Positions 48,616 through 64,000 of a stretch of 64,000 nucleotides of DNA are shown here, one piece after another. A program made the translations under genes and the position numbers. Source of the stretch: Cyclobacterium plantarum. Its GTDB lineage: Bacteria; Bacteroidota; Bacteroidia; Cytophagales; Cyclobacteriaceae. The notes beneath the pieces are model-generated. The model searched no databases. It saw nothing but the letters and a program-made list of their open reading frames with translations, and was not told the origin of the DNA. Position 1 is the first letter of the stretch; every line of letters begins with the position of its first letter. The DNA is taken from the NCBI RefSeq assembly GCF_011290685.1, contig NZ_JAANYN010000001.1, positions 124,001 to 188,000 on the forward strand. Reading direction: 5' to 3'.

Positions 48616-50714
48616 GCATGTACTTCTTTTGACCTGAATTCGCTGATCGCTTCAAATACCTTTTCTGCGGTTTTATAATATTCACCTGCAAATGATGCGG
48701 TAGGTGGATTTTGTTTGATTTGATATACCAGCTCTGAAAAGGTAGCACCCAGGTTGATTTTACCGCTCTCGATAAAATGGTTTTCGAATTCAGTGACGAT
48801 ATTGGCGTAGCTGTTGGTATTTACTCCCTCAGCCGTTAAGATGGCTTTGGCGGCATTCACCATCCCTGTGTAGGACTGGTAGATTCCGTCCGCCCATTTC
48901 TCTGCTTTCAGGCTATCTTCCGCATCAGCCAGCTTTTCCCGGGCTTCCAGTAGCAAGGTGGACACCAAATCGATCACTACACCGGCACATTCTCCTACGC
49001 CGATGGCTTTCACATAAGGTTCATCATTGCCCCAATCTATGAAATCCGAATCCGTAATGTTATCGGTTCCGGCCAGTGGCTTGAGCATTTCGTAAAAATA
49101 CATCTGCCCTTTCCTTTCGTAATAGAAGGCATAATTCTCCCCTTTTTCTGCCTGGGATTTATAATCATCCAATAACAACCTCAGGGCCTGAGGTCCTCTT
49201 TTGCTTGGGACTTTGATGACTTTATCGGCAAACCTGCCCTGCCCATCACCCATAGTAGCTCCGCCGAGCAGTACCTGTAGTGCTGGCAATACTGCCTTGC
49301 CCACCTTCATGGACATGCCCTGAAATCCTATAGAGGCCATGTTGTGCTGCCCGCAGGCATTCATACATCCCGAGATCTTAATGGTAAGGTCCTTATCCAG
49401 TAAAAATTCCGGGTACTCATCGATGATAAGCTTGCCCATCACGTCTGCTGCTCCGGTACTGCTGGCAATACCCAGGTTACAGGTATCAGTTCCAGGGCAA
49501 GCTGTGATATCCCCTATGGAATTGTATCCGTAATCGGCCAGGCCGAGTTTTTTAAGTTCCTGATAGAAGTAGGGGATCAATTCTTCTTTTACGTCGCGAA
49601 TCAAAAAGTTTTGCCTGAGCGTAAACCGCAATTCATCATTCGCAAAATCTTTGATCAATTTTGCCAGTTGCCGTGCTTCTTTGGTATAGAAATCACCCAG
49701 ATGAATTTTTACCCCTACAGCAAAATAACCAGGCTGCTTTTGGGGCAACACATTAGTCAGTTTCCATCGCCTGTAATTTTCATCCGTGGGAACAGAGAAA
49801 TCAGGCAGCGCCGGATCAGGCAATGATTTTGATGCTTCAAAATCCGTTACATCTATCGGGTAGGATTGGTGCTGCAGGGCAGCTTGTTCTTCTTTAACCA
49901 ATTGCAAGAATTCTTCCACTCCCAATTTGGTGATAAGAAACTTCATCCGGGCTTTCATTCGCTTGGCCCTTTCACCATGGCGGTCAAATACACGAACTAC
50001 CCCTTCAATAAAAGGAATCAACTGATCGGTGGGTAGAAATTCATGCACCACATCTCCATGTCGGGGTTGAGAACCCAGGCCACCACCCAAAAGTACTTTA
50101 AAGCCCCTTTCTGCTGCAGCTCCTTCTCCTTTTACCTTGGCAATAAAACCCAGGTCATGCAGGTAGGAAAGTGCTGTATCTTCCTCACTGGAAGAAAAGC
50201 TGATCTTAAACTTTCTACCCATTTCCTGGGAAATGGGATTTCTGAGCATGTATCGGAAAGTAGCATCTGCATAAGGTGTAACGTCAAATGGCTCATGGGG
50301 ATCAATTCCCGCAGTCTCTGAGGCGGTTACATTCCTTACGGTGTTCCCGCAAGCCTCGCGGATGGTGACCTCATCTTTTTCCAGTTCGGACCAAAGTTCG
50401 GGCGTCCTGTCCAGACTTACATAGTGGATCTGAATGTCCTGTCTGGTCGTAATGTGTAACCTTCCGGTAGAATACTTTTCAGAAACATCACAAATCCGAC
50501 TTAACTGGGAGGATGTCACCCGGCCAAAAGGTAGTTTGATCCGGATCATCTGAACGCCTTCCTGCCGCTGTCCGTAGACCCCTCTGGCCAGACGCAGGCT
50601 CCTGAATTTTTCTTCATCTATTTTACCGTTTCGAAAAAGGTCAATTTTGTTCGCCAATTCGACGATATCTTTTTCTACAACCGGGTTTTCTATCTCTGAT
50701 CTGAAACTTTGCAT
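48612..50714 (-). CDS. Assimilatory sulfite (or nitrite) reductase, siroheme type, with C-terminal helical extension
   Basis: 700 residues. Two ferredoxin-like half domains and siroheme-binding parts occupy about 1-540. The [4Fe-4S]/siroheme cysteines are C406-x5-C412 (ACPGTDTCNLG) and C450-x3-C454 (SGCMNACGQHN). Residues about 560-700 are an added all-helical domain (ECAGVVIDLVSTLLLEAREK, YQSYTGMVNAAKAIL) with a HEPN-like layout. Context (CysH, siroheme enzymes) argues for sulfite as substrate. The electron donor is probably ferredoxin, as no flavoprotein subunit is adjacent. Confidence 0.9.
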   Translation of the reverse strand: MQSFRSEIENPVVEKDIVELANKIDLFRNGKIDEEKFRSLRLARGVYGQRQEGVQMIRIKLPFGRVTSSQLSRICDVSEKYSTGRLHITTRQDIQIHYVSLDRTPELWSELEKDEVTIREACGNTVRNVTASETAGIDPHEPFDVTPYADATFRYMLRNPISQEMGRKFKISFSSSEEDTALSYLHDLGFIAKVKGEGAAAERGFKVLLGGGLGSQPRHGDVVHEFLPTDQLIPFIEGVVRVFDRHGERAKRMKARMKFLITKLGVEEFLQLVKEEQAALQHQSYPIDVTDFEASKSLPDPALPDFSVPTDENYRRWKLTNVLPQKQPGYFAVGVKIHLGDFYTKEARQLAKLIKDFANDELRFTLRQNFLIRDVKEELIPYFYQELKKLGLADYGYNSIGDITACPGTDTCNLGIASSTGAADVMGKLIIDEYPEFLLDKDLTIKISGCMNACGQHNMASIGFQGMSMKVGKAVLPALQVLLGGATMGDGQGRFADKVIKVPSKRGPQALRLLLDDYKSQAEKGENYAFYYERKGQMYFYEMLKPLAGTDNITDSDFIDWGNDEPYVKAIGVGECAGVVIDLVSTLLLEAREKLADAEDSLKAEKWADGIYQSYTGMVNAAKAILTAEGVNTNSYANIVTEFENHFIESGKINLGATFSELVYQIKQNPPTASFAGEYYKTAEKVFEAISEFRSKEVHA

Positions 50715-50754
50715 GGTACTGATTTTTCGGTTTTTTTAACCTGTTTTCTGTTGA

Positions 50755-51480
50755 TTAGGATTTGTTGGCTACCTGTGGTTCTTGTTCATGAAGGCCACAT
50801 TCTTTCTGGGAAGTTTCCCACCACCATCTTCCGGCCCGGGGATCTTCACCGGGTTCAATCGCCCGGGTACAGGGAGCACAACCAATGCTGACGAATCCCT
50901 TGTCGTGCAGCGGATTATAGGGGATTTTATTATTATTTATATAGGAGCGCATTTCATCCATGGTCCAGTGCAGCAAGGGATTGTATTTCAGGATTTGGTT
51001 ACCTTCATCCCATTCAAGCAGCTGCATGTTTTCCCGGTTTGGGCTTTGTTCCGCCCGCAATCCGGTAATCCAGACACTATTCCCCTTCAAGGCACGCTTG
51101 AGTGGCTCCACTTTTCTTACGTAGCAGCATGACTTCCTGTTTTCTATGGAATGGTAAAACCCATTGATGCCATTTTTTGTGACCAGGTCCTGAACAGCCT
51201 GTGTCTCCGGATAATAAGGTTTGATGTCCACGCCATATTTGACAATGGTCCTGGCCAGCAGATCATAGGTCTCGTAGAATAAACGACCGGTATCCAAGGT
51301 GAAGATTTCAACTGGCAGGTTATTTCTGGCAATGATTTCCGTGATTACCTGATCCTCCTGTCCCAGTGAAGTGGAGAAACCCACCTTTCCGGGAAAAAGA
51401 TCAGTCAGCAAACCCATGCCCTCCTTTATGGACAGGCTTTCCATTTTATGGGTCAACTCCTTAATTTTATTTGCTTCCAT
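50755..51480 (-). CDS. cysH: CysH, adenylyl-sulfate reductase type
   Basis: 241 residues from the ATG at 51480 (a TTG one codon earlier is possible). Reduces activated sulfate to sulfite. The cysteine pairs CC at 118-119 and C201-x2-C204, which bind [4Fe-4S], are present; these mark the APS-using branch rather than the PAPS enzyme of enterobacteria. The catalytic cysteine is C228 in KECGLHEQ. It lies between the Rrf2 regulator and the sulfite reductase. Sulfate adenylyltransferase genes are not in the window. Confidence 0.94.
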   Translation of the reverse strand: MEANKIKELTHKMESLSIKEGMGLLTDLFPGKVGFSTSLGQEDQVITEIIARNNLPVEIFTLDTGRLFYETYDLLARTIVKYGVDIKPYYPETQAVQDLVTKNGINGFYHSIENRKSCCYVRKVEPLKRALKGNSVWITGLRAEQSPNRENMQLLEWDEGNQILKYNPLLHWTMDEMRSYINNNKIPYNPLHDKGFVSIGCAPCTRAIEPGEDPRAGRWWWETSQKECGLHEQEPQVANKS

Positions 51481-51559
51481 CAAATTTTTCGGTTTTTTGA
51501 TTTACAGAGGACCGTATCCCCTAAGCTATGACCAACCCTTTAATAAGTATACAGGGCTG

Positions 51560-51588
51560 CAAATACAAAAGTACATAAAACCTACAAA
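51560..51588 (-). promoter_or_regulatory. Possible promoter upstream of cysH
   Basis: On the minus strand, TTTG (51585-51588), 17 bp, TGTATTTG (51560-51567), close to the Bacteroidota consensus; an overlapping TACTTTTG (51566-51573) is an exact -7 match but lacks a spaced -33 box. No SAM riboswitch is recognisable in the gap. Confidence 0.35.
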
Positions 51589-51613
51589 TTATATAGAGTA
51601 AATGGAAAAAAAT

Positions 51614-52030
51614 TTATTCGTTGGACAAAATATCCTGCAGGGTCTTCATTTCCAGTATTTTGAGTGTTTCATCCCGCACTTCTATCATCACCTTGTTCAA
51701 GCCACATTGCGCCTGATTTTCGCATTCTTCACAAGGCTCGTAATAATTGAGACTCACGCAGGGAAGCAGGGCTATCGGGCCGTCCAGCAACCGGATAATG
51801 CGGGAAAGGGGGATTTCTTTGGGCTCCTTGATGAGGTAATAGCCACCTCCTTTGCCTTTTTTACTCCCTAAAAAACCAGCTTTCTTCAATTCCAGAAGGA
51901 TATTTTCTAAAAATTTATGGGAAATATTGTGTTTTTCAGAAATTTCGGAAATCAATATGGCTCCTTTATCTTTGTTTTTTCCCAGATAAGTAAGGGCATG
52001 AAAAGCATATTTGGTTTTTTTTGAAAGCAT
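51614..52030 (-). CDS. Rrf2 family transcriptional regulator
   Basis: 138 residues. The N-terminal winged helix (LSKKTKYAFHALTYLG, ISEKHNISHKFLENILLELKKAGFLGSKKG split by a turn, GGGYYLIKEP) is typical of Rrf2. Four cysteines (C91, C100, C103, C109) in LLPCVSLNYYEPCEECENQAQC could bind an iron-sulfur cluster; IscR uses three. It is directly upstream of cysH on the same strand, so it probably controls sulfate assimilation, like CymR-type members. Confidence 0.88.
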   Translation of the reverse strand: MLSKKTKYAFHALTYLGKNKDKGAILISEISEKHNISHKFLENILLELKKAGFLGSKKGKGGGYYLIKEPKEIPLSRIIRLLDGPIALLPCVSLNYYEPCEECENQAQCGLNKVMIEVRDETLKILEMKTLQDILSNE

Positions 52031-52252
52031 GCGTCGTGCAAAAATGGTTGTATTGATTAAAGATAATCACTTTCATTAAAAATGAGCAGTGAATTGGCCG
52101 ATTTATGAAAAAAGAGGAGATCTTATAAATTCAAATTTTTCAGGTATGGGATAAAACCGGATGATTGGTAAATTCCAATGCAGGTAAACCAGTTAGTTTT
52201 CTTTACACAGGATCAGGTAGTTACGGTTTGGTTTTCGGGTTTTAAAAAAGAG

Positions 52253-53176
52253 CTATTCCAGCGCAAATGTGGTTACGACAAACCCATGGTCCGAAGGGTA
52301 GGGTATGTCCTTGCCGTTGATACGTAGGTTTTCGCCAAAATAGGCCATATAAGAAGTGGATTCCAACGGATTTAACCGCCCTTGGTAAAAAATATAATCA
52401 ATGCGGTGGGAATCCTCCTTTCCCTTTACATCCCAGGTAATGCCCGGATGCCAGTTTGGGTTTGGATGTACTTCCCGAAACGAATCCTTTAATCCCAAGT
52501 CGGCCAACACTTTGGTAGCATACCAGGGCACGATCAGTCCGTTGTGGCGAGCCTGACTTTCTTCGTTCCAGTCCAGGTGGGAAGGGGAATTCATGTCACC
52601 GCCTAAAATCATGGGAATGGAATCTGTGGCAGCAGCATATTTTTTAAGGTAGGGCAGCACGTTTTGAATCATTTCGGTTCGCTTGCCGGCGGCTTCCCAA
52701 ACCAGTAGTTCATCGACTGATTTCCCCATCTGCTCCGGTGCATCATCCCAGGGTAAATAGTAAAACCAGTTGGAAAAAACGTTTATTTTCTGCTCATCGA
52801 TCAGCACTTCCCGTCCACCCAGGTAAAACGGATACCCGGTATCGATTCGCTCACCAAAGGGGTATTTGGAATAAATGGAAAGGTTGATGCTTTCGTCATC
52901 TGGATCGGTACCTTCAGGTGCTATCAGGTGAAAATGATAGCCTAAGGTCTCCGCTATACGGGGTCCGGAGCCGTAGGTTTCCACCATGAGCACCACATCT
53001 GGGTCAATTTCCCGGATGATGTCTATTACCCGATCAGGTCCATCGGGAAGGTCATTTCCTCCATGCAAAATGTTCCAGGCCATGACCTTCAGCGCCTTTG
53101 TATCGGATTGTGCCCAGGAATCGGTTTTCAGGAGAAAAAAGATAACAAGGCAGGTGAATAGTATTATTCGTTTCAC
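52253..53176 (-). CDS. Secreted endonuclease/exonuclease/phosphatase family hydrolase
   Basis: 307 residues from a GTG at 53176, which gives a signal peptide (KRIILFTCLVIFFLLKTDSWAQ); a longer reading would add 32 residues ahead of it. EEP-fold motifs: VMAWNILHGG (Asn), VVLMVET (Glu), LGGDMNSPSHLDW (Asp-Met-Asn), HRIDYIFYQG (Asp) and PSDHGFVV (Asp-His). Substrate may be a phosphodiester such as sphingomyelin, nucleotides or DNA; the secreted form argues for nutrient scavenging. Confidence 0.85.
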   Translation of the reverse strand: MKRIILFTCLVIFFLLKTDSWAQSDTKALKVMAWNILHGGNDLPDGPDRVIDIIREIDPDVVLMVETYGSGPRIAETLGYHFHLIAPEGTDPDDESINLSIYSKYPFGERIDTGYPFYLGGREVLIDEQKINVFSNWFYYLPWDDAPEQMGKSVDELLVWEAAGKRTEMIQNVLPYLKKYAAATDSIPMILGGDMNSPSHLDWNEESQARHNGLIVPWYATKVLADLGLKDSFREVHPNPNWHPGITWDVKGKEDSHRIDYIFYQGRLNPLESTSYMAYFGENLRINGKDIPYPSDHGFVVTTFALE

Positions 53177-53419
53177 TGTGTGGAGTCGTTTGGAAATAGG
53201 GGGTGCATTGGGCCGCTTATTTTCATAAAAAGAGACCGCTGGTAAATATACACAGGTTATCTTTTGCGGCAAATCCCAGTTTTATAATTTCATCCCGGTG
53301 GATATAGGGATTGGATATCGCTCAAATTTCCAGGCACGATAATTCCCCTGGCTAACCCTAAATTCCTGAAACAAATCGTCATTGATATACATGAACCTAG
53401 AAGCCCAACTTGAACTAAT

Positions 53420-53527
53420 TCCCTCCGCCGCGGCGGAGGGATTTTGGGTACGTCGGAATTTACGGACACGGTATTACCGTGAGACTTTCTCAGCCCGTTG
53501 AAATGGCACCAATTCAGCTTTAAGCTG
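53420..53527. repeat. Series of palindromes, probable extragenic repeat element
   Basis: Three inverted repeats lie in line: a perfect 22-bp palindrome centred on CCGCGG (53420-53441, flanks TCCCTCCG and CGGAGGGA), CACGGTA-T-TACCGTG (53467-53481) and CAGCTT-T-AAGCTG (53515-53527), with ATGGCA/TGCCAT around the last. The gap 53177-53566 has no other gene; a 99-codon minus-strand ORF across it is taken as spurious. Confidence 0.6.
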
Positions 53528-53566
53528 CCATTCAGCAACTCCAATCTTTCTACGATCGACGTGTAA

Positions 53567-53607
53567 ACAAAAAAGGGAAAGCGAGGCACTGAACCCGCTT
53601 TCCCTTT
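53567..53607 (-). terminator. Intrinsic terminator after htpG
   Basis: AAAGGGAAAGCG (53572-53583) pairs with CGCTTTCCCTTT (53596-53607); on the minus strand five more T follow. It lies 20 bases after the htpG stop. Confidence 0.85.
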
Positions 53608-53626
53608 CTACGAATACATTTTACGC

Positions 53627-55507
53627 TCAAATCAACTCCACGCTTCTTTTCACAAAGGCGGTGAGCTCTTTTCCTTTCAGCAATCCCTGAGAAAGCAGGG
53701 CCAAATCGAAGGCCTGCTTGGCCAATCTTTCCTGTTCTGCAGCATCTTCTGATTTTAAAATCCGATCAACCACAGGATGGTTTCCGTTTACGCCAACTTT
53801 GTAGTTGTCCGGCATGGCTCCATAAAATCCCATGCCGCCATTTTGCGCCATGTCCTTCATCCTTCTCATGAATTCGTCCATGGTCACCGTGACGGGCAAT
53901 TCCTCCGGACTGGAACCTTGCACTTCCACCGAATAGGTTTTGTTGTCGATGGCTTTTTCAAAAATCTCCTTCACCTTGTTGGATTGCTCCTCAGTAAGAA
54001 GGTTTTCATATCCGCCTTCCTTCTCGATCAATTTGTCCACTACATCGGCATCTACGCGCTTCAGGCTGGCATTTTCCAGTTTACCTTCCAAATGCTGGAT
54101 AAAATGACTGTCAATGGGCGAATCCATCAACAACACATCGTAATCCTTTTTATTGGCCGACTGGATAAAGCTGTCCTGCTTATCCGGATCGGTTGCATAC
54201 AAGTATACCAACTTATCGTCTTTACCGGTTTGGAAGGGCTTTACCTTTTCCTTGTATTCTTCCAGGGTGTAATATTCTCCTTTCGTATTGGTAAACAGGG
54301 CAAAATCCTTTCCTTTCTCGTAAAACTTGTCTTCGGAAATCATCCCGTATTTCACAAAAAGACCAATGTCTCCCCACTTGCTTTCATAAACTTTTCGGTC
54401 TTTCTTGAACAATTCACCCAGCTTGTCCGCTACTTTCTTGGTGATGTAGTTGTTGATTTTCTTGACGTTGCTGTCGGCCTGCAGAAAGCTTCGGGAAACG
54501 TTTAGCGGAATGTCCGGAGAATCGATTACCCCGTGCAATAGCATCAGAAATTCCGGTACGATATCTTTTACCTCATCGGTAATGAAAACCTGGCGGCTGA
54601 ACAGTTTGATCTTATTGCGCTGCAGTTCAAAGTCTTTCTTTACTTTGGGAAAGTACAGAACTCCGGTAAGGTTGAATGGATAGTCCACGTTCAGGTGAAT
54701 CCAGAAAAGCGGATCCTCACTCATGGGATACAGTTCCTTGTAAAATTTCAGGTAGTCCTCGTCTTTTAACTCACTTGGTGCCTGTGTCCAGATGGGATCG
54801 GTGGTATTGACTATATTGTCAACTTCTACCGATTTCCATTTCTTCTCTCCCTTGTCATCTACCCCGTCTTCTACACTTTCGGTTTTGGTTTCAAACCTGA
54901 TAGGTACAGGAAGGAACTTGGCGTACTTGTCCAGGATTTCCTGCAGCTTCCATTTGTCCAGAAACTCCTCGGACTCGCTGTTGATGTGTAGGATCACATC
55001 CGTTCCGCGTTCGGTTTTGTCCCCGGGGCTAATTTCAAATTCCGTACTGCCATCACAGACCCATTTGGCCGGCTCAGCGCCTTCCTCTCGGGATAGGGAA
55101 TGGATTTCCACCGTGTCGGCCACCATAAAGGCCGAGTAAAAACCCAAACCGAACTTGCCAATGATCTCATTGGCATCCTTGGCATCTTTGAACTTCTCCA
55201 CGAATTCGGATGCCCCGGAAAAGGCAATCTGGTTGATGTATTTTTTGATTTCTTCGGCGGTCATGCCGATACCCTTATCGGAGACGGTAATGGTCTTTTT
55301 CTCCTTGTCAAAGCTGACATCGATAGTCAGATCACCCAGTTCTCCTTTGTACTCACCCAAAGCGGCCAATCTTTTGATTTTCTGGGTGGCATCCACCGCA
55401 TTGGACACCAATTCCCTGAGAAAAATTTCATTATCCGAATAGAGAAACTTCTTGATAATAGGGAAAATATTTTCGGTATGAATCGAAATGGTACCTTTCT
55501 CCTGCAT
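53627..55507 (-). CDS. htpG: Molecular chaperone HtpG (Hsp90)
   Basis: 626 residues. The N-terminal GHKL ATPase (about 1-230) has LRELVSNAVDATQKI, VSDKGIGMTAEEI and IGKFGLGFYSAFMVAD; the middle domain carries FWIHLNVDYPFNLTGVLYFP and the catalytic-loop NVSRSFLQ; the C-terminal dimerisation domain has DEFMRRMKDMAQNGG. No MEEVD tail, as normal in bacteria. It stands alone with its own terminator and a putative heat-shock motif upstream. Confidence 0.97.
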   Translation of the reverse strand: MQEKGTISIHTENIFPIIKKFLYSDNEIFLRELVSNAVDATQKIKRLAALGEYKGELGDLTIDVSFDKEKKTITVSDKGIGMTAEEIKKYINQIAFSGASEFVEKFKDAKDANEIIGKFGLGFYSAFMVADTVEIHSLSREEGAEPAKWVCDGSTEFEISPGDKTERGTDVILHINSESEEFLDKWKLQEILDKYAKFLPVPIRFETKTESVEDGVDDKGEKKWKSVEVDNIVNTTDPIWTQAPSELKDEDYLKFYKELYPMSEDPLFWIHLNVDYPFNLTGVLYFPKVKKDFELQRNKIKLFSRQVFITDEVKDIVPEFLMLLHGVIDSPDIPLNVSRSFLQADSNVKKINNYITKKVADKLGELFKKDRKVYESKWGDIGLFVKYGMISEDKFYEKGKDFALFTNTKGEYYTLEEYKEKVKPFQTGKDDKLVYLYATDPDKQDSFIQSANKKDYDVLLMDSPIDSHFIQHLEGKLENASLKRVDADVVDKLIEKEGGYENLLTEEQSNKVKEIFEKAIDNKTYSVEVQGSSPEELPVTVTMDEFMRRMKDMAQNGGMGFYGAMPDNYKVGVNGNHPVVDRILKSEDAAEQERLAKQAFDLALLSQGLLKGKELTAFVKRSVELI

Positions 55508-55584
55508 GGTATTATTTATTTTTGTGTTAACTAAGTCTAATATTCTTTCTGCCTATTTCAAGTCTTGTTCCAAATTCATTTTCG

Positions 55585-55597
55585 TGTCAAATTGTCA
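55585..55597 (-). promoter_or_regulatory. Putative heat-shock motif TGnCA-N3-TGnCA upstream of htpG
   Basis: Plus-strand TGTCAAATTGTCA (htpG sense TGACAATTTGACA), 78-90 bp before the htpG ATG. The pattern is its own complement and recurs upstream of grpE (16965-16977). Confidence 0.4.
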
Positions 55598-55739
55598 GTA
55601 CTTGTCTCCGTTTAAAAATATCCCTTATCCGATCCCAGGCGGGGTCGGACGGTTTCCTATGCAAGGATCCTGTTCGGTGATTTCTTGAAATTATTCAGAA
55701 TATTTTGGTATTATGCGATATTATCAAAACCAACCCAAT

Positions 55740-58148
55740 ATGCGACAGCTGCTCCTGCTGCTATTCATCAGCATCACTCCCCTTGCCAGTACCTGCCAAA
55801 TAGCAGGTAATGAAATAAATCCCTCACCAGGGATGGAACTTTGGTATACTTCCCCTGCCGGCGACTGGCTGGAAGCACTTCCCATTGGCAATGGGCGATT
55901 GGGAGCCATGATTTATGGAGGGCTGCAGGAAGAACATATTCAGCTCAATGAGGAAAGCTTATGGGCAGGGATGCCTGAAGACCCCTACCCCGAAAACGTG
56001 CGCCAGCATTACGCTGAATTTCAGCGGTTAAATCTGGAAGGAAACTATCAAGAGGCCCTGGACTACGCCATGGAATACCTGTCCGTCTCCCCCACCTCCA
56101 TACGTTCCTATGAGCCGTTAGGTGAATTGCATATATCATTCGACCATCAAAAATCGGTGGATCACTACCGAAGGTCCCTTGACATGGAGACGGGCCTGGT
56201 CACGGCTACTTATTCCATAGCAGGGAAAAGGTACCGCAGAGAGGCTTTTTCCTCCAATGAATACAATGTCATTTTTTACCGCTTTGAAAGCCTGGATGGA
56301 GCACCGGTAAGCAGCACGATTCGTTTTGAACGGGAGAAGGACATCTTCCAACGCGTTGGAGAAGAAGATATTCTATTCGTGGACGGACAGGTATTTGATG
56401 ATGCCGACGGGTACGATGACAATGTGGGCGGTTCCGGAAAACCCGGGGATCACATGAAGTTTTCTTCCCAAATCACAGCCGTTTTGGATAATGGAACAAT
56501 ACGCGGAAATGAAAAAACCCTTAGCATCGAAAACAGCACCGGCTTTACCCTGATCCTAAGTGCAGCAACGGATTATAATTTAGCTGAATTGAACTTTGAC
56601 CGAAACATTGACGCTAAAGACACCGCGTTGAAATTAATGAGAGAGGCTGCTGAAGCAACTTACGAAACAGCTAAACAGGCGCATATTTCTGAGCACAGTG
56701 ACATGTTTAACCGGGTTAGGCTTTCCTTAGGCAGCCCGCATCGGGACAGCCTTCCCACCGATAAGCGGCTGGAAAAGGTGCGGGAAGGCACGAATGACAA
56801 CCACATCACGGAATTGTTTTTTCAATACGGAAGGTACCTCCTGATGGGAAGTTCGGTCAACAGGGCGGTTCTTCCTGCCAACTTACAGGGCATCTGGAAC
56901 AAGGAAATGTGGGCTCCCTGGGAATCGGATTTTCACCTGAACATCAATTTACAAATGAATTACTGGCCTGCCGACCTGACCAATTTATCCGAGGCCTTTG
57001 TTCCCCTGTGTAATTTTATTGTAAAATTAGCGGAAAACGGAGGTACTACTGCAGAAAACTTCATCGGCTCCTCTGGCTGGATGGCCCATCATGTGAGCAA
57101 TCCGTTTGGACGAACCACCCCCTCCGGGTCAACTAAGGAATCTCAGGTTACCAACGGTTATTCCAACCCCCTGGCAGGTGCCTGGATGTCGCTATCCCTA
57201 TGGCGGCACTATGAATTTACCCAGGATCAGGATTATTTAAAAGAAACGGCCTACCCTGTCATTGCCGGTGCAGCCCGGTTTATTCTGGACTTTCTGAAAG
57301 AAAATGAAAATGGGGAACTGGTCACGTCTCCTTCTTACTCACCGGAGAACGCTTATATCGATCCAACCACCGGAAAGCCAACGAGAAATACCACGGCAGC
57401 CAGCATGGACATCCAAATTATTAATGACATCTTTAACGCCTGCCTGGAAGCAGAGGAAATCCTGGGAGCGCAGCAATTGACAGCGGAAATAGAAAAAGCA
57501 AGCGCTAAATTACCTCCGATTAAAATTGGAAAGGACGGCACCCTTCAGGAATGGTACGAGGACTATGAGGAAGCGGAGCCGGGCCATAGGCACATGTCTC
57601 ACCTTTACGCCTTGTACCCGTCCAATCAAATCACCGCAGCAACACCCGATTTGTTCCAGGCTGCGGAAAAAACCATCGAAAGGCGACTGGCCTTCGGTGG
57701 CGGCGGACAAACCGGCTGGAGCAGGGCATGGATTATCAATTTTTATGCGCGTTTACAGCAGGGAGACGAGGCCCTGGATCATATCCACCAAATGATGGCC
57801 ACCCAACTGGCTCCCAATATGTTTGATTTGCTCGGAAAGATTTTCCAGATTGAGGGCAATTTTGGGGCCACAGCAGGTATTGCAGAAATGCTCCTGCAGT
57901 CGCATGAGGAAGGAATCATCCGCCTATTACCGGCACTGCCCGAGGCATGGGACAGGGGTCAGGTATCCGGCCTGAAAGCACGAGGGAATTTTGAGGTAAG
58001 TATGGAATGGGAAGATGGCAACCTTCAAAAGGCAGCTATTCTGGCGCTGAGCGGGGGGAAAAGCAAGGTGCTTTATAAGGGTAAGGAATGGCTTGTTGAC
58101 TTAAAAAAGGGCGAAGCAAAGTCGCTATTTCCAGGATTGGAGTACTAG
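55740..58148 (+). CDS. Glycoside hydrolase family 95, alpha-L-fucosidase-like
   Basis: 802 residues from the ATG at 55740, which gives a clean signal peptide (MRQLLLLLFISITPLASTC); an ATG nine codons upstream is also possible. GH95 features: N-terminal beta-sandwich with WLEALPIGNGRLGAMIYGG and HIQLNEESLWAG, then an (alpha/alpha)6 barrel with DFHLNINLQMNYWPA (the N-x-N active-site pair), SPSYSPENAY (proposed catalytic Glu region) and PGHRHMSHLYALYP. Releases alpha-1,2-linked fucose or galactose from glycans, probably in the periplasm. No Sus-type transporter is adjacent. Confidence 0.92.
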   Translation: MRQLLLLLFISITPLASTCQIAGNEINPSPGMELWYTSPAGDWLEALPIGNGRLGAMIYGGLQEEHIQLNEESLWAGMPEDPYPENVRQHYAEFQRLNLEGNYQEALDYAMEYLSVSPTSIRSYEPLGELHISFDHQKSVDHYRRSLDMETGLVTATYSIAGKRYRREAFSSNEYNVIFYRFESLDGAPVSSTIRFEREKDIFQRVGEEDILFVDGQVFDDADGYDDNVGGSGKPGDHMKFSSQITAVLDNGTIRGNEKTLSIENSTGFTLILSAATDYNLAELNFDRNIDAKDTALKLMREAAEATYETAKQAHISEHSDMFNRVRLSLGSPHRDSLPTDKRLEKVREGTNDNHITELFFQYGRYLLMGSSVNRAVLPANLQGIWNKEMWAPWESDFHLNINLQMNYWPADLTNLSEAFVPLCNFIVKLAENGGTTAENFIGSSGWMAHHVSNPFGRTTPSGSTKESQVTNGYSNPLAGAWMSLSLWRHYEFTQDQDYLKETAYPVIAGAARFILDFLKENENGELVTSPSYSPENAYIDPTTGKPTRNTTAASMDIQIINDIFNACLEAEEILGAQQLTAEIEKASAKLPPIKIGKDGTLQEWYEDYEEAEPGHRHMSHLYALYPSNQITAATPDLFQAAEKTIERRLAFGGGGQTGWSRAWIINFYARLQQGDEALDHIHQMMATQLAPNMFDLLGKIFQIEGNFGATAGIAEMLLQSHEEGIIRLLPALPEAWDRGQVSGLKARGNFEVSMEWEDGNLQKAAILALSGGKSKVLYKGKEWLVDLKKGEAKSLFPGLEY

Positions 58149-58180
58149 CGAAAGGCAAGGTACTATTCCTTTTCATCCAT

Positions 58181-58480
58181 TTACAAGAAAGTTAATCCAA
58201 TCTTCTTATTTAGCCCCTGTTCAAAAATTCGTATCAAGGTCGATAATTGTATATTCCCTTTTCCATTTTCAAGTTTAGAAATATAGCTTTTCTTCGTCCC
58301 TGCCTTTTCTGCCAACTGTTCCTGTGTCAGATTGGCGGCCTTCCTTGCTGCCTTCAACATTTCGCTTACAATAAACATTTGGGCACTTTCTTCATATTTA
58401 ATACGGCTTGCACTCCCGATTTTTCCATGCTCAAATTCAATCAGTTCATCAAATGTTTTTACATCCCTATAATCTTTCAT
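58181..58480 (-). CDS. higA: HigA-like antitoxin, XRE helix-turn-helix
   Basis: 99 residues. A charged N-terminal part (about 1-42) precedes an XRE helix-turn-helix (about 43-95: ARKAANLTQEQLAEKAGTKKSYISKLENGK). The gene follows a HigB-type toxin gene; its ATG overlaps the original toxin stop by four bases (ATGA), the classic higBA order. It appears intact while the toxin is broken, so it may persist as an orphan regulator. Confidence 0.82.
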   Translation of the reverse strand: MKDYRDVKTFDELIEFEHGKIGSASRIKYEESAQMFIVSEMLKAARKAANLTQEQLAEKAGTKKSYISKLENGKGNIQLSTLIRIFEQGLNKKIGLTFL

Positions 58481-58767
58481 GGTTTTGGTTTTTTTGATTC
58501 AAAATATGCTTTCATTATTCTTTTGGCTTTTTCTAATTCTTTTTTTGGCGTCTTTTGAGTTTTCTTCTAGAAACCATTGAAAAGAACGACCAACCTTCCC
58601 TCATCAAAACAGCAGAAAATCCTGTAAATATTCGATTGGAATTCCACCCTTACCTCGTACAGCCCATCAGTTCCATCAAGATGCTCCAAGAACTTCTTAG
58701 GAACCCTTTCCACTTGCTTGATCAGTTCAAATCGTTGGTACCTCGTTTCGTAGATTAAATTTATCAT
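58477..58767 (-). pseudogene. higB: Decayed HigB/RelE-type toxin with an in-frame amber codon
   Basis: From the ATG at 58767 the frame reads 66 codons (VPKKFLEHLDGTDGLYEVRV, SNIYRIFCCFDEGRLVVLFNGF), then TAG at 58567-58569, then continues in the same frame with KKTQKTPKKELEKAKRIMKAYF to a TGA overlapping higA. Family members read NGFQKKTQKTPKKE at this point, so CAG to TAG is the likely change. About 25-30 N-terminal residues of the family are also missing, with a TAG just upstream of the ATG. So the toxin is probably inactive. A truncated product of 66 residues cannot be excluded. Confidence 0.78.
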
Positions 58768-58839
58768 AGATGGTGACTAGATTTTTTGAATCCTAGAGGC
58801 AGTAGCCTACCCTCTTAGTAGATCAGAATTGGCAAACAA

Positions 58840-59108
58840 AGGGGCGAAGCCCTGAATTCTTTGTCCTGCGGGATCCCAACCAAAAACCAAATAGCTTTTG
58901 TCTCAAACAGTTGTAGATCGTAGTTAGTATCACGACCCACAGGGGCGTAGCCCTGATATCTTAGTAGTAAAGAATTAAAGTCGGGAATCAGAGGGGCATG
59001 GCCCTGAAATCTTTTTACTGCGGAAATGTAAAACAAGTTGCAAAAGCTTTGGTACTTAATCTTTGTAGAACTAAATTAGCTTTAAGGATCCAAAGTGGCT
59101 CAGCCCTG
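58840..59108 (-). repeat. Left REP-like hairpin array flanking the transposase gene
   Basis: Four related hairpins: AGGGGCGAAGCCCTG (58840-58854), AGGGGCGTAGCCCTG (58941-58955), AGGGGCATGGCCCTG (58992-59006) and a decayed TGGCTCAGCCCTG (59096-59108). Each has a GGGC/GCCC-type stem with a three-base loop and one bulge, and most are followed by an ATCTT-like tail. Confidence 0.8.
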
Positions 59109-59118
59109 TTATCATACA

Positions 59119-59580
59119 ATGGCAAATACATACACACAACTATACGTCCAATTCGTTTTCTCTGTCCAGGGCAGGGGAAACTTTATCAGGGAGTCTTACC
59201 GTGACGAATTGGAGAAGGTCATGTGTGGAATCGTTTCCAACCATAAATGTAAAACGTATGCTATCTATTGTAACCCAGATCATACACACCTTTTTGCGAG
59301 TATACACCCTACTATTTCCCCCTCCAAACTAATGGAACAGGTCAAGTCAGGTTCAACAACATGGCTGAACCAAAAAAAGCTTGTTCCTGGTAAATTCGCA
59401 TGGCAGGACGGATTTGGGGCGTTTTCCTATTCCAGGTCCCACATTGATAGGGTCGTAAAATATGTCTTGAACCAACCCGAACACCATAAGAAGCAATCGT
59501 TTAGGGATGAGTATTTGAAGTTGCTTGACAAATTCGGTGTTGAATATGATCCCAAATATCTTTTTGAATGGTACGACTGA
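59119..59580 (+). CDS. REP-associated tyrosine transposase (IS200/IS605 Y1 family)
   Basis: 153 residues from the ATG at 59119; the longer GTG reading would run through a flanking hairpin. HUH motif H55-T56-H57 (NPDHTHLFASI) and catalytic tyrosine Y115 in RVVKYVLNQPEHHKKQ, followed by the acidic-basic tail FRDEYLKLLDKFGVEYD. All key residues are present, so the enzyme may be active. No IS605-type TnpB partner is present. Confidence 0.9.
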   Translation: MANTYTQLYVQFVFSVQGRGNFIRESYRDELEKVMCGIVSNHKCKTYAIYCNPDHTHLFASIHPTISPSKLMEQVKSGSTTWLNQKKLVPGKFAWQDGFGAFSYSRSHIDRVVKYVLNQPEHHKKQSFRDEYLKLLDKFGVEYDPKYLFEWYD

Positions 59581-59589
59581 CTTAGGTCT

Positions 59590-59808
59590 CAGGGATACGT
59601 CCCTGGATTTCGGCTGGATATAGATTTATGCTAACTAGGAAATGACAACCGTTCAATGATAAATGTGGGTTACTGCCTGAACAATTCTGTGAGGGCTTTG
59701 ACTCCAAATTGTTGTCTTGACGGAAGGACGGAATAGATTTCAGGGCTAACGCCCCTCATTTTCGTCGGCACAGGTTGCTTCTACTAAGATTACAGGGCTA
59801 CGCCCCTG
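59590..59808 (+). repeat. Right REP-like hairpin array flanking the transposase gene
   Basis: Three hairpins: CAGGGATACGTCCCTG (59590-59605), CAGGGCTAACGCCCCT (59742-59757) and CAGGGCTACGCCCCTG (59793-59808), each preceded by AGAT- or GTCT-like sequence. Their orientation is opposite to the left array. In the first, a loop-stem compensation (GGGA/TCCC) keeps the pairing. Confidence 0.8.
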
Positions 59809-60288
59809 GTTTTAGTCACAAAATTAATGGGTGGGACTTTTTACTCAAGTTTCACAAGATGTGCTCTATTGAGCAAATAGGACGATTGTAGTTGCTGCTA
59901 AAACAGATTTTCACCCCACTTTATTCAAAGTGAGGTGAAAAATTACCAAGAATTTCCCGTTCACAGTCCAACAAATCCGCATTTGTGGCAACTGCATTGC
60001 TGTTATGAGGAAAATGAGTTATCTACGAATTGGACCCATATTGGTATAATTCAAAAGAAGGATTAACTGGTTCCAATACTAAATTCCAGTAAATTAAAAT
60101 GATTCAATTGGCTTGTCACAAACGGGCCTGGAGCCTGTGTAGCTATGAAATGTTTATTTGAAATATATAAATTTCTGTAAACTATTCGAGCAAAAAATTT
60201 CTCTTTCACACCATTTATTTCTCCGACAGTCGGTTTACCAACAAAACGAGTCCGGTTTGCTAATGGATTAACCGTTTGGTTTACCCCA
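59809..60288. other. Gene-free stretch with one strong inverted repeat
   Basis: About 480 bases without a recognisable gene on either strand. A 15-bp stem with a single mismatch occupies 59908-59941 (left arm starting TTTTCACC, right arm ending GGTGAAAA, loop ATTC). It has no clear T-run, so it is not an obvious terminator. Confidence 0.6.
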
Positions 60289-60789
60289 TTATTCTTTGGT
60301 CAAAGCCTCAAGTCTCTCTTGAAAGTTGGGGAACGAGGGATTTCCCATTTCTACTTTGCGATCATCTTTTAGCAAAAACGAAATAAAGGATACCTCCCCG
60401 ATACCGTTCGCTTTATAAAATTCCTTATTCGGGTCGTGAATTACAGGGTGCGAAAAATTGTTCTCTTTCAATTGCCGGATCAATTTGGAAGGGTCTTTTT
60501 CTGAGATATAGAAAAGGAAGGCCACCTCCTTGTTGTTTGATATCGAAGGTTGCCAGTCCAGGGTTGTTATGGAACGGCCAACTTTATTCATATATACTGC
60601 CACCTTGTATTTACTGTCAAACCAACTGGTATCAAATTGAACGGAATCGCTTGGCTCAATTACCGTTAAATCGGTAGGGAAAACCACCTGTTGTCCATCC
60701 TTGCCGGATTTGTTTGAATTACAACTCATAGTTATGATCAAAAGAAAGCAAAAACAGGCGCGGTATACGATCAAATAGTTGGTTTTCAT
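60289..60789 (-). CDS. Hypothetical lipoprotein, thioredoxin-like fold without active-site cysteines
   Basis: 166 residues with a lipoprotein-type N-terminus (ACFCFLLIITMSC, cysteine at 23; the lipobox is poor). The rest (about 60-166: EVAFLFYISEKDPSKLIRQL, FSHPVIHDPNKEFYKANGIG, FISFLLKDDRKVEMGNPSFP) looks like a redoxin/thioredoxin fold in which the CxxC site is absent, so a redox role is unlikely. Function unknown. It lies inside the island between the transposase and the HipBA remnant. Confidence 0.6.
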   Translation of the reverse strand: MKTNYLIVYRACFCFLLIITMSCNSNKSGKDGQQVVFPTDLTVIEPSDSVQFDTSWFDSKYKVAVYMNKVGRSITTLDWQPSISNNKEVAFLFYISEKDPSKLIRQLKENNFSHPVIHDPNKEFYKANGIGEVSFISFLLKDDRKVEMGNPSFPNFQERLEALTKE

Positions 60790-60891
60790 TGGGTATTGGT
60801 TTTAGTATTGAATTCTAGGTTGGAATAGATTAAAACAGGATTGTCCTGATTTTCAGTATTTTTTGAAGCTGATGTCACAACCTGGTTTCCG

Positions 60892-61234
60892 TCAAAAAAT
60901 ACCGTATTCCGAATCAGATTTAGGCATGGGCTGAAATACTCCTATTTGTTTGGCTTTTTTATCAATCATTACTTGATAGGCTTCCTTCATTTCATCCGGA
61001 AGAAAGCTTATTTCCACAAACTCATGCCATTTAGGAATCGCTTTTTTTAAACGTTGGAAAATGTTATCGAATGCTTTCTGATCGATTTCAAACCTCCCCA
61101 TAGCTGCTTCAAAATCCCTGCGTGTTAGTTTCTTTTTTCAGATAAACATCCCTGTATTGAAAATGATATCCTTCCTCATCTTCTTGCAGGATACCTGCCC
61201 AATCGTTGTGCATAAATACTTTAGCCTTTCTCAT
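60892..61234 (-). pseudogene. hipA: HipA toxin remnant (start and end joined)
   Basis: The ATG at 61234 opens 41 codons that look like the HipA N-terminus (KAKVFMHNDWAGILQEDEEG, YHFQYRDVYLKK) and stop at 61109-61111. In another frame the sequence continues KLTRRDFEAAMGRFEIDQKAF and KAIPKWHEFVEISFLPDEMK, matching the last helices of HipA kinases, and stops at 60892. About 300 residues with the whole kinase active site are missing. The frames change at an A-rich stretch near 61130, so a deletion with frameshift joined the ends. Confidence 0.8.
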
Positions 61235-61325
61235 GGATCAGTTTATTGCGGTTTATTGGCACCGGACCGAGTTCATAACCAAACAAAACCAAAACCTGGT
61301 TGACCTTATCCTTTTGCACGGTAGC
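61221..61325 (-). pseudogene. hipB: HipB antitoxin remnant, C-terminal end
   Basis: About 34 codons in frame (VNQVLVLFGYELGPVPINRN) end in TAA at 61221-61223 and overlap the hipA start, as in complete hipBA operons. The LFGYELGPV segment is typical of the end of HipB-like XRE antitoxins in this phylum. An in-frame TAG lies directly upstream and the helix-turn-helix is gone. Confidence 0.65.
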
Positions 61326-61424
61326 CTATTTAACCCTGATCCACCTGCTTTATGCAAACCATTTAATAAGTAGCTGACTCCAGCAAAAAACCCATCCTAA
61401 CATTTTTTTTATTCCTTAGATGGT

Positions 61425-61461
61425 AAAAAAAAAGCGCTAACCGAAACCGGAAAGCGCTTTT
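61425..61461 (-). terminator. Intrinsic terminator after rpsA
   Basis: AAAAGCGCT (61430-61438) pairs with AGCGCTTTT (61453-61461) around a 14-base loop; on the minus strand a long T-run follows. It lies 21 bases after the rpsA stop. Confidence 0.85.
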
Positions 61462-61482
61462 CATTATAAAATCTATTTTCTT

Positions 61483-63267
61483 TTATTTTTTGGACTGGTC
61501 CATTTTTTCCTTCAGAGCCGTCAAGGCATCTAAATCACCCAAGGTAGACTTCTCTCCTCCGGCACTGCTATCCGATCCGGAAGCTTTCTTCTTGGTACCA
61601 GGAGCTGCGGTTTTCTTGGCAGCAGCTTTAGGCATGGCTTCCTCTTTGAAGGTAGCTGTGTGCGAAAGCACAATGCGCTTGTCCTCTTTGGAAAATTCGA
61701 TTACCCTGAAATCAAGGCTTTCTCCTGCCTCAGCCTGTGTTCCGTCTTCCTTCTCCAGGTTTTTGGCGGTAACAAATCCCTCCAGACCATAGGGAAGCTC
61801 CAATACTGCTCCTTTGTCATTTTTGGAAATGATAGAACATTTGTGCGTAGATCCGATCGGAAACACACTTTCGAAGGTATCCCAGGGGTTTTCCTCCAAT
61901 TGCTTGTGGCCCAATGCCAGTCTCCTGCTATCCAGATCCAGTTCCAGGACGATAACATCCAGTTCGTCGCCTACTTTTACAAACTCGGAAGGATGCTTGA
62001 TCTTTTTGGTCCAGGACAGGTCGGATACGTGTACCAGACCATCGATACCTTCTTCCAGTTCCAGGAACAAGCCAAAGTTGGTCAGGTTTCTGACGATTCC
62101 CTTGTGCTTGGTGCCTATGGCATACTTGGTACCCATTTCGGACTTGGTCCATGGATCTTCGGTCAGTTGCTTGATGCCCAAAGACATTTTCCTTTCGTCT
62201 TTGTCCAGGGTCAATACCACTGCATCGATTTCGTCGCCCACTTTCACAAAGTCGGCGGGATTTCTCAGGTGCTGAGACCAGGACATCTCTGATACGTGAA
62301 TCAGTCCCTCTACACCTGGAGCCAATTCAAGGAATGCGCCATAATCGGCCACATTGACAATTTTTCCTTTGACTTTGGATCCCACTTCAAGGCTGGCAGA
62401 AAGTGAATCCCATGGATGAGCAGTCAGCTGCTTCATGCCCAGAGAAATCCGTTTCTTGTCATCATCGAAATCCAATACCACAATCTGCACCTTATCGTCC
62501 AGGTTAAGCACTTCTTCGGGATGGTTGATCCTGCCCCAGGAAATATCGGTAATGTGCAAAAGTCCGTCTACACCACCCAAATCGATAAATACACCGAAAT
62601 TGGTCATGTTCTTGATTACACCTTCCAATACCTGTCCTTTTTCCAGGTTGTTCAGGATTTCGGCTTTTTGTTTTTCCAGATCTTTTTCGATCAATACTTT
62701 GTGAGAAACGACCACGTTATCGTTGGCGTGGTTGATTTTCACCACTTTCACTTCCATTTTCTTACCTACATAGATATCGAAATCCCGGATAGGTTTCACA
62801 TCGATCTGCGAACCCGGAAGGAAAGCTTCTACCCCGTAAATATCCACAATCAGACCACCTTTGGTCCTTCTCTTCACCAATCCTTCAATGACATTGTCTT
62901 GCTCCAGGGCCTCCTCAATGGTCTGCCAGGCTTTGACCATTTTGGCCTTTTTACGGGAAAGCACCAATTGGCCCAATGAGTTTTCCTGCTCTTCTATGAA
63001 AAGCTCCACCTCGTCGCCAATTTTCAGGTCCTCAACATCACGGAACTCGTTCAAGGGAACCAATCCATCGGATTTGAAACCAATGTTGATGATCACGTCC
63101 TTGTCGTTGATACCCACTACCGTACCGGTAATGACCTCCTTTTCGGTGATCTCCGTAAGCGTTTTGTCATACAGCTTTTCCATTTCGGCTCTTTCAGCCT
63201 TGGTATAGCCTTCTCCAAAACCCTTGGTTTCAAATTTTTCCCAGTTAAAATCTTTTTGATTTGACAT
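61483..63267 (-). CDS. rpsA: 30S ribosomal protein S1
   Basis: 594 residues from the ATG at 63267 (MSNQKDFNWEKFETKGFG); the frame is open 52 codons further up but that part is not conserved-looking. Six S1 RNA-binding repeats can be followed, each with a GxVxxxxxxGxFV/LxL core (GVIKNMTNFGVFIDLGGVDG, KGIVRNLTNFGLFLELEEGI) and a VSxLSW or ITDISW end. A low-complexity tail (AAAKKTAAPGTKKKASGSDS) follows. S1 brings mRNA to the ribosome, which matters in a phylum with weak Shine-Dalgarno signals. Confidence 0.96.
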   Translation of the reverse strand: MSNQKDFNWEKFETKGFGEGYTKAERAEMEKLYDKTLTEITEKEVITGTVVGINDKDVIINIGFKSDGLVPLNEFRDVEDLKIGDEVELFIEEQENSLGQLVLSRKKAKMVKAWQTIEEALEQDNVIEGLVKRRTKGGLIVDIYGVEAFLPGSQIDVKPIRDFDIYVGKKMEVKVVKINHANDNVVVSHKVLIEKDLEKQKAEILNNLEKGQVLEGVIKNMTNFGVFIDLGGVDGLLHITDISWGRINHPEEVLNLDDKVQIVVLDFDDDKKRISLGMKQLTAHPWDSLSASLEVGSKVKGKIVNVADYGAFLELAPGVEGLIHVSEMSWSQHLRNPADFVKVGDEIDAVVLTLDKDERKMSLGIKQLTEDPWTKSEMGTKYAIGTKHKGIVRNLTNFGLFLELEEGIDGLVHVSDLSWTKKIKHPSEFVKVGDELDVIVLELDLDSRRLALGHKQLEENPWDTFESVFPIGSTHKCSIISKNDKGAVLELPYGLEGFVTAKNLEKEDGTQAEAGESLDFRVIEFSKEDKRIVLSHTATFKEEAMPKAAAKKTAAPGTKKKASGSDSSAGGEKSTLGDLDALTALKEKMDQSKK

Positions 63268-63371
63268 ATTAAATGATACAACCCTGATTTTCAACAGCCT
63301 TAGGGTCGTCTGGCTGAGGTTTTTATGAAGAATACCTTCCCTAAGGAAGAACCGTTCACCCGAACGGACTG

Positions 63372-63379
63372 CAAATTTA
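63372..63379 (-). promoter_or_regulatory. Possible -7 box upstream of rpsA
   Basis: Minus-strand TAAATTTG matches TAnnTTTG, about 105 bases before the rpsA ATG. No -33 box is seen at the usual spacing. Confidence 0.3.
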
Positions 63380-63448
63380 CGAAATATTTTAGGAATAGAA
63401 ATGCCTAACCCACAAAAAATCAAGTTCTTTACCGGATTAGCAGACCGC

Positions 63449-63970
63449 TCATCCCACTGTTTTGGCTGCTAAAAATGGCAGCCATTCTTCGGCATGTCTT
63501 TCTGCATATTCGGCTAAAAAGTAAGCAAGCGTCGGCCTGAAGGGCAGTATTTTTAGTTTCATGCCTGCCTGCTCCGGAGTTTTGTCCCCCTTCAGGGTAT
63601 TGCAGCGGTGACAGGCGGTAACCAGATTTTTCCAGCTTGTCTTTCCTCCCTTGGACCGGGGTACCACATGATCCAGGGTCAGGCTCTTCTCGGCACCACA
63701 ATACTGGCAGGCATGCTGGTCCCTTTTGTACAGGTTGTTTCTGTTTAACATGACTCCTTTATAAGGAATGTTTTTGTACTCATGCAGGCGGATCACTGCC
63801 GGATAAGCGAAATTTCTATCTACCGTCCGTATCGTCAGGTAATCAAAATTGGCCAATGGAGCTGCTTTCTCCAGCAGGGTAAGTACCAATGCCTTCTGCA
63901 CATTGACGATGCCGACAGGGGAATGATCCAAATTCAGCACAAGCACTTTTTTTTCCATCCACTCCTTCAT
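63449..63970 (-). CDS. HNH endonuclease family protein (small, chromosomal type)
   Basis: 173 residues (a second ATG four codons in is possible). The N-terminal part KKVLVLNLDHSPVGIVNVQKA is typical of a widespread, mostly single-copy HNH family. The HNH core has CQYCG, LTLDHVVPRSKGG and the second Cys pair CHRCNTLKG, so both structural zinc cysteine pairs and the catalytic His are present. Its role is not established; it is conserved in position rather than mobile in many genomes. Confidence 0.85.
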   Translation of the reverse strand: MKEWMEKKVLVLNLDHSPVGIVNVQKALVLTLLEKAAPLANFDYLTIRTVDRNFAYPAVIRLHEYKNIPYKGVMLNRNNLYKRDQHACQYCGAEKSLTLDHVVPRSKGGKTSWKNLVTACHRCNTLKGDKTPEQAGMKLKILPFRPTLAYFLAEYAERHAEEWLPFLAAKTVG

Positions 63971-64000
63971 GATCCCATTAGATTTTTAACATGAAGAACC

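Follow-up and report, generated by a model that had tools for sequence, protein, structure and literature searches.

In the literature consulted here, repetitive extragenic palindromic (REP) elements go together with TnpA_REP proteins of class 2, the REP-associated tyrosine transposases (RAYTs). The REPtrons built from them (PMC2817692, PMC3116915, PMC8266576) surround a Y1 gene with short hairpins in inverted orientation; a conserved motif adjoins the hairpin foot, and the hairpin families are gene-specific and dispersed as pairs. Comparable features are found at a locus of Cyclobacterium plantarum, in a 64,000-nucleotide stretch of contig NZ_JAANYN010000001.1 (positions 124,001 to 188,000 of the forward strand; hereafter the window), where a Y1 HUH nuclease gene, tnpA (59119..59580, + strand, 153 aa plus stop codon), lies within inverted arrays of small hairpins. 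Unlike in REPtrons, the protein belongs to class 1 and not to class 2, and in place of a GTAG at the foot the conserved motif is CTACNAAGAT, separated from the stem by 4 nt. With good, though not full, confidence, we read this locus as a REPtron-like element with its own tag and hairpin code, in which the place of a RAYT is taken by a Y1 nuclease of the IS200 class (class 1, subclass 1.2-like).

Insertion sequences (IS) of the IS200/IS605 group, such as IS608 and ISDra2, share the catalytic class and the fold and likewise employ single-stranded DNA hairpins, whose foot is preceded on the 5' side by a guide sequence (PMC8266576), but at our locus no left/right pair of ends and no near-identical copies are seen, and the gene occupies one syntenic site. 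TIRtrons, with their TIRYT proteins (Di Nocera et al. 2013, PMC3733652), are alike in having a Y1 gene between non-GTAG inverted repeats, some of which are repeated genome-wide, while they differ in their RAYT-like proteins and long terminal inverted repeats, several with GGGGWSAS, where we find arrays of tagged hairpins of 11-16 nt. TnpA_Y1 subclass 1.2 (Quentin et al. 2018, PMC6006769) has in common with the window gene the Y---Q--HH and WQ motifs, a length of about 150 aa, occurrence in Bacteroidota, low copy number and strongly diverged copies. That source lists the subclass as having no REPs and as generally without typical IS200 terminal structures, whereas here arrays flank most members examined. 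Its automatic REP search required GTAG or GTGG, both absent from the window-family hairpins; if an IS200-class nuclease takes the role of a RAYT with another motif, the subclass was probably overlooked for that reason. Palindromic candidates in Bacteroidetes have been named, with no Y1 gene mentioned in the available part of that report (PMC8040213). Among the open-access matches listed, we found no prior report of such arrays, and the titles listed for the tag string are unrelated.

Class of the Y1 protein

A sequence-only reading of the window had proposed a 153-residue HUH/Y1 transposase of the RAYT type. The open reading frame (59119-59577) indeed encodes 153 aa and matches the Pfam model Y1_Tnp at 82 bits (cut-off 23), but RAYT is the wrong label. 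The residues DH55-T-H57, W95Q and Y115---Q119--H122H123 (Y-VLN-Q-PE-HH) give the class 1 motif Y---Q--HH and not the RAYT motif Y---NP, with Y115, Q119 and H123 invariant in 28 sequences. Against the NCBIfam model REP_Tyr_transpos, the protein scores 29.7 bits (E 5e-7), below the curated cut-off of 80, and against the IS200/IS605 transposase model it scores 63 bits, above the cut-off of 55.

A true REPtron, pairing a RAYT (TnpA_REP, class 2) with a REP family as in Gammaproteobacteria, would account for the single Y1 gene within inverted hairpin arrays, for the weak REP_Tyr_transpos match and for the alignment of TnpA_REP 4ER8 and of 2fyx, which alone among the Y1 structures listed extend through residue 153; it is contradicted by the catalytic motif, and we regard it as highly improbable. 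The other RAYT traits are divided: inverted REP-like hairpins do flank the gene, GT[AG]G is missing from the 5' foot, and a dispersed family is absent from the own genome and present in Alkalitalea and Lunatibacter. The solved structures nearest to the predicted model are IS200/IS605 transposases, in a comparison that leaves other families possible. The single-chain model aligns with IS608-type chains as far as about residue 111 and with 4ER8 as far as residue 153, which would fit a tyrosine helix placed in cis; this hint from a single-chain prediction is not used as evidence.

The protein fits subclass 1.2 in its signature residues (Y115, Q119, H122, H123, W95, Q96) and in its copy number. 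Y1 genes of this kind occur in all 12 Cyclobacterium genomes, with 1-4 matches each (fragments counted) that fall into syntenic groups, and paralogues within one genome are 28-56% identical (11 genomes with at least two copies; two gene fragments left out). The near-identical multiple copies typical of IS200/IS605 are lacking in the own genome, where the other three copies are 33-41% identical. The HuH motif is DHTH in the window protein and in the 28-sequence consensus, as opposed to the published DH[IV]H (MEME consensus, PMC6006769); most paralogues have DHVH, DHIH or DHCH. Because the arrays conflict with the published description of no REPs and no typical ends, we label the protein subclass 1.2-like and not a proven member.

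Hairpins, tag and stem types

Seven hairpins of one family flank the gene, four on the left in one orientation and three on the right in the opposite one, all at the places given in the sequence-only reading and in excess of shuffled sequence. Allowing up to four mismatches, AGGGGCGTAGCCCTG matches seven times within 58780-59830 (+ strand at 58840, 58941, 58992 and 59094; - strand at 59590, 59741 and 59793), whereas 300 dinucleotide-preserving shuffles averaged 0.12 matches and never exceeded 2; the entire window holds 14 such matches, including these seven. With up to two mismatches, there are five in the interval, none in any shuffle and no others in the 64 kb. The outer pair (58940-58967 and 59781-59808) forms the 28-nt inverted repeat that had been claimed for it, 93% complementary. 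Beside the hairpins lies a second conserved part that had escaped the earlier reading, the tag CTACTAAGAT, intact in these two and altered at the other hairpins.

Tagged hairpins also surround the gene in its relatives. A scan of named genomes yielded 483 relatives, the best 80 of which were kept and, together with the window, form the 81 loci considered here; 12 of the 80 have less than 500 bp of flank on one side, at contig ends. Hairpins whose foot has AAGAT no more than 9 nt away reach 3.35 per kb within 500 bp of the gene (263 of 688 hairpins) versus 0.097 per kb beyond 1.5 kb (32 of 1010), and at least one is present in 62 of the 81 loci. When full tags within 700 bp of the gene were chosen regardless of pairing, 160 of 200 were followed by a hairpin of at least 4 bp, versus 8% in shuffles; such tags occur at 56 loci, with a density of 1.85 per kb near the gene versus 0.051 per kb far from it. 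In a wider phylum sample, a relative at E<=1e-20 is found in 105 of 296 Bacteroidota genomes. Among 29 of these loci with flanks, 26 carry at least two hairpins no more than 450 bp away, and at 18 the two flanks share a similar type; hairpin density is 7.10 per kb within 450 bp versus 1.50 per kb beyond 900 bp. Viral contigs gave one partial relative only.

In the consensus, a 4-nt spacer separates CTACNAAGAT from a short stem, whose TAC or TAAC loop is closed by a C-G pair. This geometry, with a 4-bp stem, is followed by 97 of the 200 tags with a 3-nt loop and by 48 with a 4-nt loop. The closing pair is C-G in 97/97 triloops and 47/48 tetraloops (144/145), the loop is TAC in 71 of the 97 and TAAC in 33 of the 48, and the other three stem pairs vary, with three or four of the types GC, CG, AT and TA; the stems thus differ from one locus to another and still pair. 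Read on the opposite strand, the loops are GTA and GTTA, that is, GNA/GNNA, which are very stable in DNA. Among the papers listed for such loops together with REPs, none visibly treats their stability, and PMC3686654 contains none of the relevant terms. C-G-closed loops of this type number 105/178 near the gene versus 2/25 far from it in the phylum sample, and GNA/GNNA loops number 101/237 versus 19/330 in the 80 loci and 40/135 versus 10/375 in Cyclobacterium. Many GGGC hairpins carry one C more than G, leaving a bulge (AGGGCTACGCCCCT 21 times versus AGGGCTACGCCCT 5 times); for IS608 and for E. coli REP, stem irregularities or bulges are of importance (PMC8266576).

Stem type matches the protein. 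At identities of at least 62% (53 loci, to which L166, with a frameshifted gene, was assigned by hand), 48 loci have tagged hairpins and 48/48 include the GGGC type, while at 59% or less (28 loci) 14 have tagged hairpins, 0/14 of the GGGC type, and the tag is kept; related loci are not independent, hence no probability is attached to these counts. Judged by them, the tag is constant and the stems vary with the protein. Natural pairs of protein and hairpin with clearly different stems and one tag exist, which makes the discrimination of own from foreign hairpins by Y1 proteins directly testable.

An alternative is that the nuclease leaves the hairpins unprocessed and that they work at the RNA level, terminating, attenuating or stabilising the tnpA transcript, or serve as DNA sites for a binding protein. 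The hairpins do stand near both gene ends, and two counts speak for this account at the expense of ours: the window hairpins at 58841, 58993 and 59793 are terminator-like by consensus, with 4 sites in the stretch versus 1.5 (sd 1.3) in shuffles, and TTTT follows the stem within 6 nt on the tag strand in 48 of 264 tagged hairpins. The T-run is missing after the other 216, however, and an unpaired conserved tag set at a constant 4 nt from the stem, arrays with hairpins in both orientations, a stem type that tracks the protein and dispersal to sites without the gene are all unexpected of terminators, so that we hold this account to be quite unlikely.

Dispersal, synteny and a possible mechanism

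The sequence-only reading had seen a REPtron layout and had looked to further copies in the genome for support. The layout is indeed REPtron-like and the hairpins belong with the transposase, but besides the lack of a RAYT there is no dispersed REP family in the own genome: with up to two mismatches, the 15-mer of the family has 12 matches there, 5 of them at the locus, which is not above the 16 of the reversed control, and both exact matches are at the locus. With its hairpins found at the locus alone, the window copy does not sustain a strict REP reading; in this species, judged by sequence, the hairpins are without spread and most tags are decayed. At the level of the family, a REP-type reading is rescued by comparative evidence, the family being dispersed in two other hosts and two paralogous families being dispersed within the genus.

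In the other hosts, the 22-letter pattern CTACGAAGATNNNAGGGCTACGCCC with up to three mismatches has matches in 22 of 23 genomes (the genome of locus L145 was left out) and the reversed control has 0 in all 23; copy numbers range from 0 to 29, versus REP families of 20-100 and up to thousands (PMC3733652). The matches listed mostly surround the gene. The exceptions are Alkalitalea saponilacus and Lunatibacter salilacus, with 23 of 29 and 6 of 11 matches away from it, respectively; the flanks retrieved for these outlying sites held no gene relative. Among 13 fetched Alkalitalea loci, 0/13 with a gene relative, seven (L210, L211, L213, L214, L216, L218 and L219) hold a run of at least two tagged hairpins, the first on + and the last on -, with tags outward; further single or unpaired matches lie in L214, L218 and L219. 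The remaining loci comprise five with a single tagged hairpin and one with none by that criterion. In L. salilacus (L224, 2128-4154), about 1.6 kb interrupts the tnpA gene (87-88% identical) after residue 123.

Within Cyclobacterium, the 15 paralogue loci mapped mostly have their own hairpin type, several with composite units. Around 33 loci of the genus, the density of strong hairpins in the nearest 250 bp is 5.3 per kb on the left and 7.3 per kb on the right, versus 0.6-1.0 beyond 2 kb; the strict count at the window locus is 3 within 750 bp per side. Copies of the family of locus L002 occur in genomes G000, G009, G008 and G003, on contigs without a protein match except at its own locus. G009 contigs C29 and C13 (L070, L071) end inside L002-type arrays, and the matching G009 gene may therefore be lost in an assembly gap. 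Among the matches listed, copies of at least 200 nt of another unit, OG-E, are present in 6/6 genomes with the corresponding gene and 0/6 without it. Some of these units, of about 420 bp, have inverted ends AACCTNAGTTCGA in common, and 4 of the 17 loci scanned carry the exact sequence on either side; L094 and L196 differ by a deletion within a unit, and G006 has two tandem units versus one in G007 (L086, L091). A REPtron-like origin would explain at least two dispersed hairpin families in Cyclobacterium. Further dispersed families of the genus (L065, L070, L076, L078, L080), for example of the CCCCCTTNNNAAGGGGG and GTTCGACATTACAAATGTCGAAC types, are tied to no gene here.

The genes themselves keep their places. 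The exact 15-mer occurs in 4 of 12 Cyclobacterium genomes (7 copies), twice each at the gene in G000, G006 and G011 and once in G003, all at one syntenic site. The G003 copy (C20:294533) was considered as a dispersed REP and rejected, as it lies at this same site, where G003 lacks the gene and all other sequence corresponding to window 58497-59677 but retains two right-hand hairpins. G002 is without the stretch corresponding to window 58337-60247, and in G009 the flanking genes are 168 bp apart versus about 2.1 kb in the window, a block that holds other sequence too. We interpret G002 and G003 as having lost the sequence; none of the genomes compared at the window locus offers a cleanly empty site. 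In G011 (C. xiamenense, L033), the orthologue is broken by an in-frame stop and a diverged start region, and two exact hairpins remain. The best reading of these comparisons is a one-site copy that has been wholly or partly lost in some related species. Between species, dN/dS is 0.05-0.17 in 8 of 10 pairs, the other two being excluded for differing length.

In G006 (C. roseum), 59119-59718 is 99.5% identical to the window (3 differences in 600, two of them in the gene and both synonymous), in surroundings where most aligned 100-bp windows are at 75-96% and one other patch, 57619-57818, is at 98-99%. This 99.5% patch may reflect recent exchange between species.

An ordinary IS200-type IS with duplicated ends, transposing as an entire element with its gene, is a further alternative. 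It would suit the class 1 protein and the proteins of about 80% identity in the distant lineages Reichenbachiella, Marinifilum, Runella and Labilibaculum, identities that, together with motifs, suggest horizontal transfer of the gene, with the hairpin type travelling along. Yet there is no near-identical second copy, the within-genome paralogues being as diverged as given above, the loci are syntenic between species, each side has several hairpins and not one left and one right end, and hairpins are dispersed without the gene. We consider such an element unlikely.

Other observations weigh against a REPtron-like element. The window species carries the hairpin family at one site only, and the mirrored orientation is only a tendency (187 of 262 tagged hairpins, 81 loci). 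The five loci of the most distant Cyclobacterium branch (L057-L061) have 0-1 strong hairpins within 750 bp; at a lower G+C threshold, a repeated TTGGCTAAAGCCAA hairpin appears in three of four inspected. Since the six OG-E genomes possibly form one clade, their co-occurrence with the gene is not independent evidence. Our search for empty OG-E sites took in six sites in eight genomes, and none of the four compared with relatives (L093 and L102 left out) was a clean empty site: between-species indels do not end at unit ends, so that the target site and the unit ends are not readable and mobility is historical at best. The exact tag is present in only 1 of the 29 phylum-sample loci, and a tagged hairpin is missing from 19 of the 81 loci, some of them cut by contig ends; on these counts, the arrays look general and the tag appears to belong to the nearer relatives, not to the entire group.

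If the locus is a REPtron-like element, its hairpins would by analogy be substrates of the nuclease, since TnpA_REP and IS608 work that way, with the tag replacing GTAG or the guide sequence. The region would become single-stranded, for example at a replication fork, and TnpA would recognise tag and hairpin jointly on the active strand. Tyr115 would then nick beside the hairpin and join it to another single strand. Local multiplication of hairpins would give rise to arrays, whose spacing at the window locus is about 50 bp, and in some hosts hairpins would be scattered as outward-tagged pairs. The gene would stay put within a species under vertical inheritance, possibly with some benefit to the cell, and has probably passed between Bacteroidota lineages.

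On balance, we lean towards a wider proposal, that Bacteroidota hold a second, independently evolved REP system, in which IS200-class Y1 nucleases were domesticated in parallel to RAYTs and use a modular single-stranded DNA code, a fixed tag CTACNAAGAT and a C-(GNA/GNNA)-G capped stem varying with the protein, to seed gene-specific hairpin families across the phylum. The independent origin rests on identities and motifs. If true, the domestication of Y1 transposases into repeat makers would have occurred at least twice.

Features of the window locus

The left array is oriented on the - strand. Its first hairpin (58840..58854; AGGGGCGAAGCCCTG on the + strand) has one mismatch to the family 15-mer and a degenerate tag on its 3' side. 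The second (58940..58967) has the intact tag, reading CTACTAAGAT-AT-CAGGGCTACGCCCCTG on the - strand, and is conserved in G006, with an exact 15-mer in G011. The third (58992..59018), recovered by both 15-mer and tag scans, has the degenerate tag GTAAAAAGAT, and the fourth (59094..59108; AGTGGCTCAGCCCTG on the + strand, 3 mismatches) has a decayed one; the G011 counterpart of the latter, AGGGGCTCAGCCCTG, adjoins its gene. Scanning for tag and hairpin together revealed a degenerate eighth hairpin, absent from the sequence-only reading, at 58797..58821 (AGGCTACTGCCT on the - strand, tag CTACTAAGAG), which sits in a 595-bp block without a counterpart in G006 and G011.

The right array is oriented on the + strand. 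Its first hairpin (59590..59605; CAGGGATACGTCCCTG), found by the 15-mer scan, has a 6-bp stem and a decayed tag. Its stem bases had been taken to have changed together, a covariation reading that we reject: A/T replaces a C/C mismatch of the 5-bp register and lengthens the stem to 6 bp, with no pair-for-pair swap. Swaps of stem pairs do occur between species. The second hairpin (59741..59756; CAGGGCTAACGCCCCT, 4 mismatches) has a decayed tag and the tetraloop form TAAC, the commonest tetraloop in the family, and the third (59781..59808) bears the intact tag and mirrors 58940-58967.

Directly left of the array, a toxin-antitoxin-like pair (an HTH_3 protein and a Gp49-like protein) lies at 58181-58767 on the - strand. 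For the block 58296-58890, together with this pair, G006 and G011 have nothing corresponding at that position, and G003 retains part of it, up to 58496. No tRNA genes were found in 50000-64000. To the right of the array, 59830-60021 (about 190 bp) is single copy in the own genome by the search made, while it matches G003 and G008 once each and G011 several times, at 79-82%, constituting another repeat family.
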